From positions 496,001 to 560,000 of the forward strand of contig JACJID010000003.1 in assembly GCA_014138725.1 (NCBI GenBank): a DNA stretch of 64,000 nucleotides, in the 5' to 3' direction. Of this stretch, positions 10,702-28,357 are shown piece by piece. Every line of letters starts with the position of its first letter. Positions within the stretch are counted from its first letter, which is position 1. Under the pieces are notes generated by a model that saw only the letters and a program-made list of their open reading frames with translations, did no database searches and was not told where the DNA came from. The position numbers and the translations under genes are program-made. This DNA comes from Kutzneria viridogrisea (GTDB lineage: Bacteria > Actinomycetota > Actinomycetes > Mycobacteriales > Pseudonocardiaceae).

Positions 10702-10794
10702 CGGGATTCGCGCGCCCCAGGGCGGGACTCGCGCGCGTGTGGGCGGGACTCGCGCTTGAGACGGCGTGTCCCGCTCAGGGGAGCGCGAGTCCCG
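10702..10794. repeat. Inverted 21-bp repeat cluster between the GH101 and SIS genes
   Basis: Three copies of CGGGAYTCGCGC start at 10702, 10723 and 10744, exactly 21 bases apart. They are followed by copies of the reverse-complement unit (GTGTCCCG, GAGTCCCG) at 10766 and 10787, again 21 apart. The two half-arrays face each other and can form large hairpins. The unit is the reverse complement of the one in the large array at 26626-27160. Confidence 0.75.
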
Positions 10795-10801
10795 CTCTGG
10801 G

Positions 10802-11683
10802 TCAGGTCAGGATGATGCTGCGCGTGACCCCGCGGGGCCGGTCGGGGTTGACGCCCTGCGCGACGGCCACCCGCACGGCCACCCGCTGGGCGCGGATCAG
10901 GTCCACTATCGGGTCCACAGTGGACAGCACGAGGGTCGCGCCGGTCGCCAGCACCTGGTCGGCCAGCCCCTCGGGTGCGGGCCCGAACACCCAGACGGCC
11001 GTGTCGTGGTCGGCGATGGACACCGGACCGTGCCGGTACTCCATGGCGGAGTAGGACTCCGTCCAGCCCCGCGAGGTCTCGCGGAACTTCAGCGCGGCCT
11101 CGTGCGCGATGCCGGTGCTCCAGCCGGTGCCGAGGAAGGTGATCTGCCTGGCCCGCAGCACGCCCTCGGGCAGTTCCTCGGTCAGGGCCTGCTCGGCCAG
11201 CGCGGGCAGCCCCGACACGTCCTCGCCCAGCGCGGCGCGCAGCAGCACCAGTTGCGTGGTCGGGAACCGGGTCTGCACCACGGAGACCTCGTCGGCGAAG
11301 TCCAGCAGCAGCACGTGGTTCGCGGTCTGGTAGACCGGCGTGCCCGGGGTCGCGGTGATCACGGAGGTCACGGTGCCCGCGGGCACCCGAGCCAGCGCCT
11401 CCAGGACCTCGGTCGTCGTGCCGGAGCGGCACAGCGCCAGCACCCGGTCGTAGCGGCGCCGGACCCCGGGCAGCTCGGAGGCGGGCCACGCGTCGGTCTC
11501 ACCCTGGCCCGCGGCCTCGCGCAGCGCGGCGTAGGACTGCGCCATGTAGTACGAGGTCCCACAGCCGATCACGGCGACCCGCTCGCCCCGCAGCGGCAGC
11601 GCCTCAGGTGCGGTGGCCGCGATATCCAGTGCCCTGCGCCAGCAGTCGGGCTGGCTGGCGATCTCCTCGTTGGTGTGGCTCAT
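10802..11683 (-). CDS. SIS-domain sugar-phosphate isomerase/deaminase, AgaS-like
   Basis: This 293-residue protein has two SIS domains as in the C-terminal half of GlmS. The first has VIGCGTSYYMAQ and LCRSGTTTEV, and the second has FLGTGWSTGIAHEAALKFRE and SAMEYRHGP. It lacks the glutaminase domain of GlmS, so it is not the biosynthetic enzyme. AgaS and related stand-alone proteins deaminate and isomerise galactosamine-6-phosphate to tagatose-6-phosphate. That fits an O-glycan locus with GH101 and a PfkB-type kinase, although fructosamine or glucosamine substrates cannot be excluded. ATG start with a GGGGAG ribosome-binding site. It starts just after the end of the DUF5107 gene. Confidence 0.8.
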   Translation of the reverse strand: MSHTNEEIASQPDCWRRALDIAATAPEALPLRGERVAVIGCGTSYYMAQSYAALREAAGQGETDAWPASELPGVRRRYDRVLALCRSGTTTEVLEALARVPAGTVTSVITATPGTPVYQTANHVLLLDFADEVSVVQTRFPTTQLVLLRAALGEDVSGLPALAEQALTEELPEGVLRARQITFLGTGWSTGIAHEAALKFRETSRGWTESYSAMEYRHGPVSIADHDTAVWVFGPAPEGLADQVLATGATLVLSTVDPIVDLIRAQRVAVRVAVAQGVNPDRPRGVTRSIILT

Positions 11684-24943: not shown

Positions 24944-26140
24944 GTGGAGCTGGCGGAGATCGACCTGACGGACCTGGACCGGTTCACCGACGGGGACACG
25001 CCGTGGCGAATGTTCGAGGTGCTGCGCGGGCAGGCACCCGTGCACTGGCAACCCGAACCCGCGCCGAACAGCGGGTTCTGGGCGGTGACCCGGCACGAGG
25101 ACATCCTCACCGTGGAGCGGGACCCCGAGACCTACACCTCGGAGCAGTTCGTCAACCTGGAGGAGGTCGACCAGGAGCAGATCGCGCGGCGCAGGTCCAT
25201 GCTGGAGACCGACGGCTCCGACCACACCGCGCTGCGCAAGATGCTGATGCGCGAGTTCACGCCGAAAGCCGTCGCCGCGTACGAGAGCTTCCTGCGCGGG
25301 CTGACCACGCGCACCCTGGACGCCGCCCTGCCACTGGGCACGTTCGACTTCGTCCGCGAGATCGCCGCCGACTTCCCGATCTCGGTGCTGACCCGCATGC
25401 TGGGCGTGCCCGCCGAGGACAGTCCCCAGCTGATCGACTGGGGCAACCGGATCATCACCAGCGAGGGCAGCGACGAGCGGCACCGGGACCTGCCCTTCCG
25501 CAGCCCGGCCGCACTGGAGGTCTTCGACTACGGCAGGCGGCTGGCCGCGCTGCGCCGTGGCGGCACCGGCACCGACCTGGTCAGCAAGCTGGCCAACGCC
25601 GGGCTGTCCCCCACCGAGTTCGACACGAACTTCCTGCTGCTCGTGGTCGCGGGCAACGAGACCACCCGGCACGCCATCTCCCACGCCCTGCTCGCGCTGA
25701 TCCACAACCCCGAGCAGTTCCGGCTGCTGCGCGAGGACCCGTCCCTGCTGCCGGGCGCGGTCGAGGAGTTCCTGCGCTGGTCCTCACCGATCTACCACTT
25801 CCGCCGCACGGCGACACGCGAGGTCGAACTGGGCGGTCAGCGGATCCGCGCCGGGGACAAGGTGGTGCTCTGGTTCGCCTCCGGCAACCGCGACGAGTCG
25901 GTGTTCGAGGACGCGGCCGCGTTCGACGTGACCCGGACCCCGAACAACCACGTCACCTTCGGCCGCGGCGGCCCGCACTTCTGCCTCGGCTACGCCCTGG
26001 CCCGCCTGGAACTGCGCGTGCTGTTCGAGGAGCTGCTGAGTCGTGTGCGGGCAGTGGAACTGGTGGGTGGGGTGCAGCGGGTGAGGTCCAACTTCGTGAA
26101 CGGGATCAGGGAAATGCGGGTGAGGGTTCGGGGGGTGTGA
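24944..26140 (+). CDS. Cytochrome P450 (CYP124/125/142-like)
   Basis: The protein has 398 residues. The I-helix AGNETTR, the K-helix ExxR (EEFLRW) and the heme loop TFGRGGPHFCLG (heme ligand Cys347) are all intact. The C-terminal RVRSNFVNGIREM resembles the end of actinobacterial CYP124/125/142 enzymes, which hydroxylate sterol or lipid side-chain termini. Substrate is not determined by this. The GTG start has AGGGGA upstream, overlapping the end of the APC permease gene. No ferredoxin gene is adjacent, so redox partners must be supplied elsewhere. Confidence 0.9.
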   Translation: MELAEIDLTDLDRFTDGDTPWRMFEVLRGQAPVHWQPEPAPNSGFWAVTRHEDILTVERDPETYTSEQFVNLEEVDQEQIARRRSMLETDGSDHTALRKMLMREFTPKAVAAYESFLRGLTTRTLDAALPLGTFDFVREIAADFPISVLTRMLGVPAEDSPQLIDWGNRIITSEGSDERHRDLPFRSPAALEVFDYGRRLAALRRGGTGTDLVSKLANAGLSPTEFDTNFLLLVVAGNETTRHAISHALLALIHNPEQFRLLREDPSLLPGAVEEFLRWSSPIYHFRRTATREVELGGQRIRAGDKVVLWFASGNRDESVFEDAAAFDVTRTPNNHVTFGRGGPHFCLGYALARLELRVLFEELLSRVRAVELVGGVQRVRSNFVNGIREMRVRVRGV

Positions 26141-26218
26141 GGGGGTGAGGAGGGACGGGGTGCTACGGGGTGCAGTGGTGTGACGGGGTGCGGCGGGGCT
26201 GGGGGTGAGGGTCGGCGC

Positions 26219-26374
26219 GTGTCGGCGGTGGCGGGGTGGTGTGTCGGACGTTTGGGGTCGGTGTGTCGGCGTGTGCGGGGTGGTGTGTCGGGCGTACGGG
26301 GTCGGCGCGTGTCGGCGTTTACGAGCCGGTGTGTCGGACGTTTGGGGACGGTGTGTTTGCGGTTGTGGTGTGGT
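26219..26374. repeat. 22-bp tandem array, about seven units
   Basis: Units starting GTGTCGG occur at 26219, 26241, 26263, 26285, 26309 and 26331, with a degenerate unit at 26353. Spacing is 22 bases except one of 24. The unit ends vary between GTCGGT and GGTGGT. There are no unique spacers between units. Confidence 0.85.
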
Positions 26375-26477
26375 TTCTCGGTTGGTGGGATGCGGGGGCG
26401 GGGTACGGGTGTGGCGGGGCTGGGGGCGTGGGTTGGTTTGGTGCGGGTCCCTCGCGGCGGCCTTGGATCGGGGTTTC

Positions 26478-26499
26478 CGGGGCATGGAGGGATGCCCCG
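26478..26499. repeat. Short hairpin between the two tandem arrays
   Basis: CGGGGCAT (26478-26485) pairs perfectly with ATGCCCCG (26492-26499) around GGAGGG. It may be a terminator for the P450 transcript, although it is over 300 bases from the stop codon. Confidence 0.45.
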
Positions 26500-26625
26500 A
26501 TTCGCCGACGAGCGTATGGCCGCCGCTACTCACACAAAACCAACCCGGTTGAGGTTGGTGCATAGGGGGTTGGGTGGTGCGGGTCGGAGGGTGAGGTGCG
26601 GGCGTGGTGGCGCTTGTGATGGGGC

Positions 26626-27160
26626 GAGTCCCGGTTTGGGGAGGGTGGGTTCCAGTCTGAGGTGTGTGAGTCCCGCTGTGTGGAGTGTGAGTCCCGCTCT
26701 GGGTAGGGCGAGTCCCGGCCTCTGGTGTGTGAGGCCCGGCCGCCGGTGGGCCGAGTTCCGCTGCCTGGGGTGCGATTCCCGCTCTGGGCAGGGCGAGTCC
26801 CGGCCTGGGGAGGGTGAGTCCTGCTCGGCGGAGAGTGAGTCCCGGTTTGGAGAGCGCGAGTCCCGGCTTCCGGTGTGTGGGTCCCGCTGTCCGGAGCGTG
26901 AGTCCCGGTCTGAGGAGCACGAGTCCCGCTCTGGTGAACGAGAGTCCCGGCTTGGGGAGGGCAAGTCCCGGCCTAGGGGGCATGAGTCCCGCTGCCTGGG
27001 GCGCGAGTCCTGGCTTGGTGAGCGGGTGTCCCGCTATGGGGGAGTGCGAGTCCCGCTCTGGGGTGTGTGAGTCCCGCTTGGGGGAGCACGAGTTCCGCTG
27101 TCTGGAGGGCGAGTCCCGGTTTGGGGTGTGTGAGTCCCGCTGTGTGGTGAGGGTGTGTCG
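26626..27160. repeat. 21-bp tandem array, about 26 degenerate units
   Basis: The 8-base core GAGTCCCG (and close variants such as GAGTTCCG, GGGTCCCG and GTGTCCCG) recurs at 26626, 26647, 26668, 26689, 26710, 26731 and onward to 27132. Spacing is 21 bases, with two steps of 22 (26731 to 26753, 27026 to 27048). The remaining 13 bases are degenerate, commonly GCTCTGGG or GCCTGGGG then a purine/GTG tail. The last, decayed unit ends about 80 bases before the HNH gene start. Confidence 0.9.
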
Positions 27161-27238
27161 GGTTTGGGTTGGTCACCCACATGGGTAGCCATTGGTGGGC
27201 AACGGTTTTGTGGTGAATTGGGGAGTAGAATTGTTGGT

Positions 27239-28354
27239 ATGACAGCATTCGTGGACGCTCGACCCGCCGCAGGGTTGTGGCGGTTGGGGGACGCGGAGCT
27301 GTTGGGCGAGTTGCAGGACGCGGAAGTGGTTCTGCGGCAAGCGTATGCGTGGGTGTTGGGGTTGGTCGCGGAGGCGGATGCGCGGGGTGTGGCGGAGCGG
27401 GTGGGGTATCCGAGCCTGGCAGAGTTGCTGCGCGGTGTGCTCTGCGTGAGCAAGAAGGAAGCCAGACAGCGGATCGCGCACGCGGGGGTTCCGGTGGCAG
27501 TTCCACTGGAGCCGGAGCAGTTGTCGGTGATCAACCGGGTGCTACGGGAGTTGCCGCCACACATCGGTGCGGCCGACCGGGAGCAGGCTGTCGAGGTCCT
27601 GGCAGCAGCGGCCCAGACGCTGGACGCCTCCAACCTGGTGCCACTGGGCCGGGAGATCGTCAACCGGCTGGACCCCGACGGGGCGCTACCGAGTGAGGAC
27701 GAACTCGCCCATCCCCGACGGGAGTTCCGTTACGACACACGGCGGGACGGATCAGTACGGTTCCACGGGTGCCTGGACGCGGAGACCGGCGCCCTGCTGG
27801 AGGCCATCCTCAGCCCGCTGGCGAAACCACACGACGCCCACGACACACGCACCCTGCCCGAACGGCAAGGGGACGCGTTCGCGGAACTACTGGAAACCAG
27901 CACCACGCCGACCGAAGGCGGGGAACGGCCCCACATCGCGGTGACCATCCCGCTGACAACACTCCAGAACGGGCTCGGCACCACCGAACTCTCCCCATCA
28001 GCGATCCGCAGGCTCGCCTGTGACGCGAAGGTCCTCCCAGTGATACTGGGCAGCAACTCCGAACCGCTCGACATCGGGCGGATCAGCTACACCGTGCCGT
28101 CCCACCTCCGACGAGCACTGATCGTCAGGGACCAGCACTGCGCATTCCCAGGGTGCAGGCGACGGCCGAGCAGTTGCCATGCACACCACATCATCCACTG
28201 GGTGGACGGAGGAGTGACGGCGCTGGCCAACCTGGTGCTGCTGTGCGGGATGCACCACCGACTGATCCACCACAGTGGCTGGACAGTGCGGATCGTCAAC
28301 GGCAGGCCGGAGTTCACCCCGCCGAGCTGGCTCAGGCGAAGGCGAAAACGGTAG
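27239..28354 (+). CDS. DUF222 protein with C-terminal HNH endonuclease domain
   Basis: The protein has 371 residues. An N-terminal helical DUF222 region (about 10-250) as in mycobacterial 13E12-type repeat proteins is followed by an intact HNH nuclease domain with zinc-type cysteines (CAFPGC, LCGMHH), the catalytic core HAHHIIHW and the GG.T...NL spacing (about 295-350). The ATG at 27239 has GGGGAG 13 bases upstream. This family is multicopy and often near repeats or mobile DNA in actinobacteria; its biological role is not established. It lies directly downstream of the 21-bp array. Confidence 0.88.
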   Translation: MTAFVDARPAAGLWRLGDAELLGELQDAEVVLRQAYAWVLGLVAEADARGVAERVGYPSLAELLRGVLCVSKKEARQRIAHAGVPVAVPLEPEQLSVINRVLRELPPHIGAADREQAVEVLAAAAQTLDASNLVPLGREIVNRLDPDGALPSEDELAHPRREFRYDTRRDGSVRFHGCLDAETGALLEAILSPLAKPHDAHDTRTLPERQGDAFAELLETSTTPTEGGERPHIAVTIPLTTLQNGLGTTELSPSAIRRLACDAKVLPVILGSNSEPLDIGRISYTVPSHLRRALIVRDQHCAFPGCRRRPSSCHAHHIIHWVDGGVTALANLVLLCGMHHRLIHHSGWTVRIVNGRPEFTPPSWLRRRRKR

Positions 28355-28357
28355 GCG

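Follow-up and report, generated by a model that had tools for sequence, protein, structure and literature searches.

What keeps an 8-base core (GAGTCCCG) in register through a tandem array of 21-bp units, while the 13 bases between successive cores drift, and what might such an array do in the spacer between a cytochrome P450 gene and a DUF222-HNH gene? The array lies in the window, by which we mean the whole stretch of 64,000 nucleotides of Kutzneria viridogrisea DNA that was analysed (Table 1). An anchored walk from 26626 to 27153 gave 26 positions; the steps between them measured 21 bases in 23 cases and 22 bases in two (26731 to 26753 and 27026 to 27048), and TRF agreed with the walk (26624-27141, period 21, 24.6 copies, 65% matches); the preliminary description of the locus, which counted about 26 units and two 22-base steps, was thus accurate. 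Fifteen of the cores were exact, nine had one mismatch and two had three (26647 and 27153), so that 24 of the 26 carried at most two mismatches. Within the window GAGTCCCG was observed 20 times against 5.4 expected, a number to which none of 100 shuffles got, and a second, smaller array built on this core lies at 10702-10794 (Table 1). We also agree that CRISPR-like unique spacers are absent, since the 13-base linkers between the 8-base cores have a common consensus, and a CRISPR locus is thereby ruled out. No Rfam family matched the 64-kb window at gathering scores. Strand asymmetry is strong over the spacer holding the array, with a GC skew of 0.38 and an AT skew of -0.37 at 26001-27000.

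Table 1. Features of the window around the 21-bp array and at the second, smaller array.
Feature	Position	Strand	Evidence or remark
Three-unit array belonging to the family	10702..10751	-	
Two units in opposite orientation (GTGTCCCG, GAGTCCCG)	10766..10794	+	End adjoins the stop codon of the minus-strand ORF 10802-11683
Cytochrome P450 gene, upstream; the spacer starts at its stop	24944..26140	+	Pfam PF00067, E 8.5e-23
Array of a second, related type (core GTGTCGG, period ~22/44)	26209..26381	+	Starts ~70 bp past the P450 stop
Conserved block, ~155 bp	26405..26562		Occurs with all 15 close copies of the DUF222 gene
Tandem array of 21-bp units with core GAGTCCCG; 26 positions in phase	26626..27160	+	Anchored walk, TRF
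DUF222-HNH cassette	27160..28349	+	Copy homology starts at 27151-27171 and stops at 28317-28355 (full-length matches)
DUF222-HNH (13E12/REP13E12-type) gene, 371 aa	27239..28354	+	Pfam PF02720, E 3.3e-32; PF01844, E 1.9e-5

A search of the source genome (10.25 Mb in 11 contigs) for the core at this spacing, as the preliminary description had proposed, revealed a genome-wide family of arrays. Exact core pairs with 12-15 bases between them (20-23-base spacing) numbered 1,069, of which 493 were forward and 576 reverse, and the reversed control pattern gave 0 pairs in the same genome. The 81 stretches sampled from it (1.664 Mb, which includes 4 kb twice because L058 and the window overlap) held 128 arrays of at least three units. 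The longest head-to-tail run in any array examined had 38 units. Three control words gave 0 arrays; a fourth, GACTCCCG, gave 110, presumably the same ones, and is a poor control at one mismatch off the core. Part of the stretches had been sited on or beside known arrays via the core pattern, with gene context ignored, and the blind-placed ones held 10 arrays in 520 kb (8 in 25 stretches of 500 kb in all, and 2 in L043), a density that corresponds to about 160 to 200 arrays per genome. The window array had no match in a plasmid collection, and three in-register cores were found in 4 stretches of viral contigs. Nowhere in the literature that we found, with thin coverage of subscription journals, were such arrays described.

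Most arrays lie at the ends of genes. Gene calls from an in-house codon-usage caller, to which atypical genes like DUF222 are invisible, placed 126 of the 128 arrays in spacers, with one overlapping a called gene and one free of context; this location and the occurrence of 20- and 22-base steps rule out a protein-coding heptad repeat. Convergent spacers held 79 of the 126, codirectional spacers 46 and divergent spacers a single one, in a sample where spacers of at least 40 bases number 151, 460 and 229, respectively, and where divergent spacers account for 23.6% of intergenic bases. An array of at least two units lay within 30 bp at 88 of the 148 gene ends of array-bearing spacers, and GAGTCCCG was read in the sense direction at 65 of these 88 (binomial p 8.5e-6, the two ends of one spacer being non-independent) and antisense at 23, which makes polarity a strong bias and no rule. 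Facing pairs in convergent spacers were sense-first in 12 cases and antisense-first in 1, and in codirectional spacers the corresponding counts were 28 and 6. The polarity of the arrays is not shared by isolated cores: among 25 found in spacers outside arrays, 1 sense and 7 antisense cores lay within 30 bp of a stop codon, 10 sense and 4 antisense cores lay farther away, and 3 more were in divergent spacers. None of the 8 tRNA genes in the sample had an array within 400 bp. The preliminary description had overlooked this family of polar gene-end arrays, as it had the DUF222-HNH element around the window array, and its interpretation is supported in one part, that selection acts on the phased core, the bound protein being putative.

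That part is supported by the way in which units differ from one another. In 334 triplets with exact outer cores and a free middle core, the middle core showed a per-site identity of 97.2% and was fully exact in 274, while adjacent linkers agreed at 55.6% in the same triplets and linkers from different arrays at 51.6%; in arrays of at least three units, 710 of 767 steps were exactly 21 bases. Cores are thus kept while linkers drift, as had been proposed. A logo of 710 units, in which the core columns are favoured because units were picked by core, had further fixed points in a Y before the core, a C at position 10 and a G at position 15. Linkers an even number of units apart were more alike than those an odd number apart, by 0.061 (null sd 0.008, maximum of 200 shuffles 0.023), and in one array (L193:8208-8908), likely a copy-number variable locus, the same two 21-base units alternate as about eight 42-bp dimers. 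Together these two observations indicate that arrays grow at least partly by steps of 42 bp. Slippage therefore exists, but alone it fails to explain the held core.

The reading that we favour, at a probability of about 0.4, is that the arrays are tandemly expanded gene-end elements of a terminator type, read by a putative sequence-specific factor. They look akin to dispersed gene-end elements of sister species, the inverted arms of which start, a few bases past the stop codon, with a word like GCGAGTCNCGCTC; in the lineage of K. viridogrisea the word may have been multiplied into 21-bp tandem arrays, so that the family would descend from such elements. Most likely they terminate transcription, or shield one gene from the transcription of its neighbour, and do so chiefly where genes converge. 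Less certainly, a DNA-binding factor may read the core, a suggestion made because single arrays have no RNA fold and because both the core and its phasing by two helical turns have been conserved; this putative reader, most simply a DNA-binding protein, would sit in a row along one side of the helix, and the bound protein might obstruct a polymerase arriving from the gene side. Where sense and antisense arrays face each other, the transcript can also form an inverted-repeat fold. Textbook terminators are scarce in GC-rich actinobacteria, and the way in which their transcripts end between convergent genes is poorly understood.

The arrays may alternatively be a selfish or neutral satellite, produced by slippage, unequal exchange or gene conversion and surviving only after genes, as the least harmful place. 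We consider this possible, if doubtful. The even-lag likeness of linkers and the two-unit alternation in L193, a sign of recent slippage, are what a satellite would show, and the presence of arrays inside a mobile-looking DUF222 element, the lack of sense bias among isolated cores near stops, and the 0 to 11 core pairs in each of six congeners (G221-G226) against 1,069 in the source genome fit it as well. Neutral decay should nevertheless hit core and linker alike, which is not what the triplets show, and tolerance predicts a location in 3' spacers but not a sense bias. A satellite also leaves unaccounted for the recurrence of core, place and bias with different linkers in another genus.

The search of relatives for the phased core, likewise proposed in the preliminary description, found at least one core pair in 68 of 390 genomes of the GTDB family (the source genome included), many of them single or in simple repeats. 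G212 has 185 pairs and G209 has 34, and arrays with the linker CCCCCAATCACGC occur in the group g11. Among 395 other genomes sampled across the phylum, 5 matched, one with a 10-bp simple repeat, one with a 23-bp tandem repeat and three singly. From G212, which belongs to another genus, 18 stretches were sampled (360 kb, 12 of them blind). Its units are 22 bases long (38 of 39 steps), and of its 12 array-bearing spacers 7 were convergent and 2 were called divergent; 4 of the 7 convergent ones held facing pairs, with arrays 5 to 19 bases from both stops, and where an array lay no more than 30 bases from a gene end, which was so at 13 ends, the core was sense in 11. Groups g11 and g20 contributed 11 arrays in 10 stretches, all sited on arrays, and none was divergent. 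A pattern for inverted pairs was found in 9 of the 390 family genomes, and since its backward control also matched about a dozen, polarity cannot be measured by this pattern. The core thus recurs in other genera with different linkers and a 21- or 22-base period: the array is not peculiar to this assembly, and core and linker do not drift equally between units or between species.

Orthologous spacers were compared with those of the congeners, most of which show synteny around gltA and thiE. In congener orthologues of four array-bearing spacers, excluding the gltA spacer of G226, where the upstream gene was uncalled, a tandem core pair was found in 0 of 19, and a gapless stem of at least 12 in 12 of 19 (gltA spacer 1 of 5, the next spacer 2 of 4, thiE 4 of 5 and the spacer of a SIS gene 5 of 5); some of the stem-negative spacers had gapped inverted repeats by eye. 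At two of the four sites, though not at the remaining pair, K. viridogrisea has the longer spacer (606 and 741 bases, congeners 44-256). In the spacer of the SIS gene, congener arms start with GCGAGTCCCG (G222), GCGAGTCACG (G223) and GCGAGTCGCG (G221), and the K. viridogrisea units are antisense to both genes, which speaks against simple growth in place. The congener hairpin sequences of the gltA spacer differ, and in a fifth compared spacer K. viridogrisea bears the second array type.

A related word is present singly in five of the six congeners. The 18-mer GAGTCNCGYTCTCNGGCA occurs 28 times in G221, 12 in G222, 64 in G223, 118 in G224, 151 in G225 and 0 in G226, against 2 in the source genome and 0 for the control. 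Its context was examined at 30 sites from 30 loci (two of them assigned to the source genome by their order, one with confirmation), of which 5 within genes or at edges were dropped. The remaining 25, one from the source genome, were convergent in 15 cases, codirectional in 10 and divergent in none; 20 were sense and 5 antisense, 14 lay at most 15 bases from a stop codon, and 13 lay 6-11 bp past it. The congeners mostly use GAGTCACG or GAGTCGCG beside GAGTCCCG, and the core is not universal. At the sixth core letter 27 of the 28 G221 sites have G, G223 mostly has A and the source genome has C, and the word is on account of these differences between species regarded as dialectal. Other hairpin words are common to congeners at convergent gene ends (L229-L240), for example AGGAAGGGACCATTCCTGACGTT in G223, with a near-identical one in G225.

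In eukaryotic rDNA, the Sal-box or Reb1 terminators of RNA polymerase I consist of protein sites that are set in tandem past a transcription unit and are polar, and the proposed array would work alike, no relation of sequence being claimed. By this analogy the arrays could be polar barriers, in which a dedicated DNA-binding factor on the phased cores past stop codons would halt a polymerase from the gene side, and word and reader would change together; we hold this to be unlikely.

Improbable, too, is that the arrays are plain RNA hairpin terminators, with sense and antisense arrays as the arms of a long inverted repeat and the core itself unread. Of the 18 convergent spacers in which two arrays face each other, 16 had a gapless stem of at least 12, several elements in G212 and the congeners are inverted repeats, and bacteria in general have stem-loops close to stop codons and between convergent genes (PMC1590033). 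Yet 55 of 87 array-bearing spacers contain just one array of at least three units, and neither the fixed word nor the 21-base phase is needed for a hairpin. In 81 single arrays (at least 4 units, at most 260 bases) no fold signal was seen, the mean z being +0.23 in sense and +0.02 in antisense, so that in a comparison with intrinsic terminators, for which only the stem-loop part was scored, facing pairs give stems and single arrays are unfolded. A hairpin within each unit (CGCTC tggg GAGCG in the consensus linker) was rejected, its stem pairs being outside the 14 strongest covarying pairs, and is also disfavoured by the array fold z near 0.

The distribution of stems in spacers of 40 to 900 bases was compared further. 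A gapless stem of at least 12 was found in 51 of 91 array-free convergent and 16 of 221 array-free divergent spacers, and in array-bearing convergent spacers in 32 of 49 unmasked and 15 of 49 with the arrays masked. Masked array-bearing spacers thus had fewer stems than array-free convergent ones (p 0.005), a deficit that was non-significant on length matching at 80-500 bp (12 of 33 against 27 of 49, p 0.12). Such a deficit is what one would expect if arrays had partly taken the place of hairpin terminators, but the fit is not strong.

The arrays might instead be sites of topology or nucleoid organization, their phased, GC-rich units drawing gyrase or a nucleoid protein to the region where genes converge, for which BIME and gyrase provide the analogy. 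Two helical turns correspond to 21 bp and convergent spacers are preferred, but neither the sense bias nor the closeness to stop codons is predicted by this explanation, which we judge to be quite improbable.

The gene beside the window array has the features of REP13E12, namely a DUF222 and HNH protein and several near copies. Fifteen close copies exist in the genome, of which 13 are unbroken (1 with an internal stop) and 2 are split, and the ~155-bp block was absent elsewhere in the 81 stretches. The block and the cassette form an element of about 1.3 kb, seen at 26405-28349 of the window and in 14 more copies (L060-L075), whose homology among copies ends close to the final codons of the gene and in some of which an array lies between block and cassette. 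All 15 close copies have an array of the same family upstream of the gene within the retrieved flank, which could suggest that arrays are a target or amplification platform of this element. Four copies, however, join block and cassette directly, and the window array is therefore an insert within a REP13E12-like element; in these four the array does not lie at the edge of the cassette. Loci with more distant homologues or pieces were array-free in 12 of 13 cases, and a close copy of block and gene occurred in only 6 of the 81 stretches against 128 arrays. The DUF222-HNH context is special to a minority of arrays, and very little probability attaches to the platform explanation.

Least credible of all is a DNA uptake sequence of a transformable actinobacterium, since coding DNA is not enriched in the core (it holds 32 isolated cores, and the seven permuted words range from 22 to 254), even if more than 1,000 copies of a short word, species dialects and inverted pairs at gene ends, which may serve as terminators, recall the uptake sequences of Neisseriaceae and Pasteurellaceae (PMC3630211 for Neisseriaceae). 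The arrays differ from those sequences in being tandem, phased and biased in orientation, and the core lacks their over-representation in genes. Phased arrays of uptake words are not known.

Other known repeats resemble the arrays in part. Like REP/BIME and similar 3'-end stem-loop repeats, the arrays are dispersed, extragenic, convergent or codirectional, and near stops, but their unit repeats head to tail and, with the fold z of the 81 single arrays given above, is not a folding palindrome. Mycobacterial MIRU minisatellites are also dispersed tandem repeats in actinobacterial spacers; their unit is about 46 to 101 bp, and the arrays do not belong to them, having units of 21-22 bp (735 of 792 steps were 21 bp when two-unit arrays in the 81 stretches are included) and drifting linkers. 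The TAACTGA direct repeats of Beggiatoaceae share with the arrays the many intergenic sets and the fixed word, and most are placed just upstream of start codons in that genome, whereas the arrays sit past stop codons (PMC4679880).

More than 1,000 near-identical sites, oriented, in phase and for the most part at gene ends, are available in one genome, and sister species can serve as its controls. Should a protein read the cores, these sites would represent a new bacterial way to end or insulate transcription; should nothing read them, they would be a striking satellite with a drift-resistant core. The phased GTGTCGG arrays (period 22 and 44), which are possibly related to the GAGTCCCG family, likewise occupy gene spacers (L042, L051, L058, L182, L184, L196 and others). 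A dispersed element composed of 19-bp repeats (GCGTCTTCGC, GCGTCTTCGCGCCGGT) and a long GATGATCAC hairpin was represented by 11 BLAST pieces in the sample (L207:14996-15260, L056, L091, L107, L173, L174 and L192); it lies near many arrays without always being flanked by one, and is therefore treated as a separate repeat.
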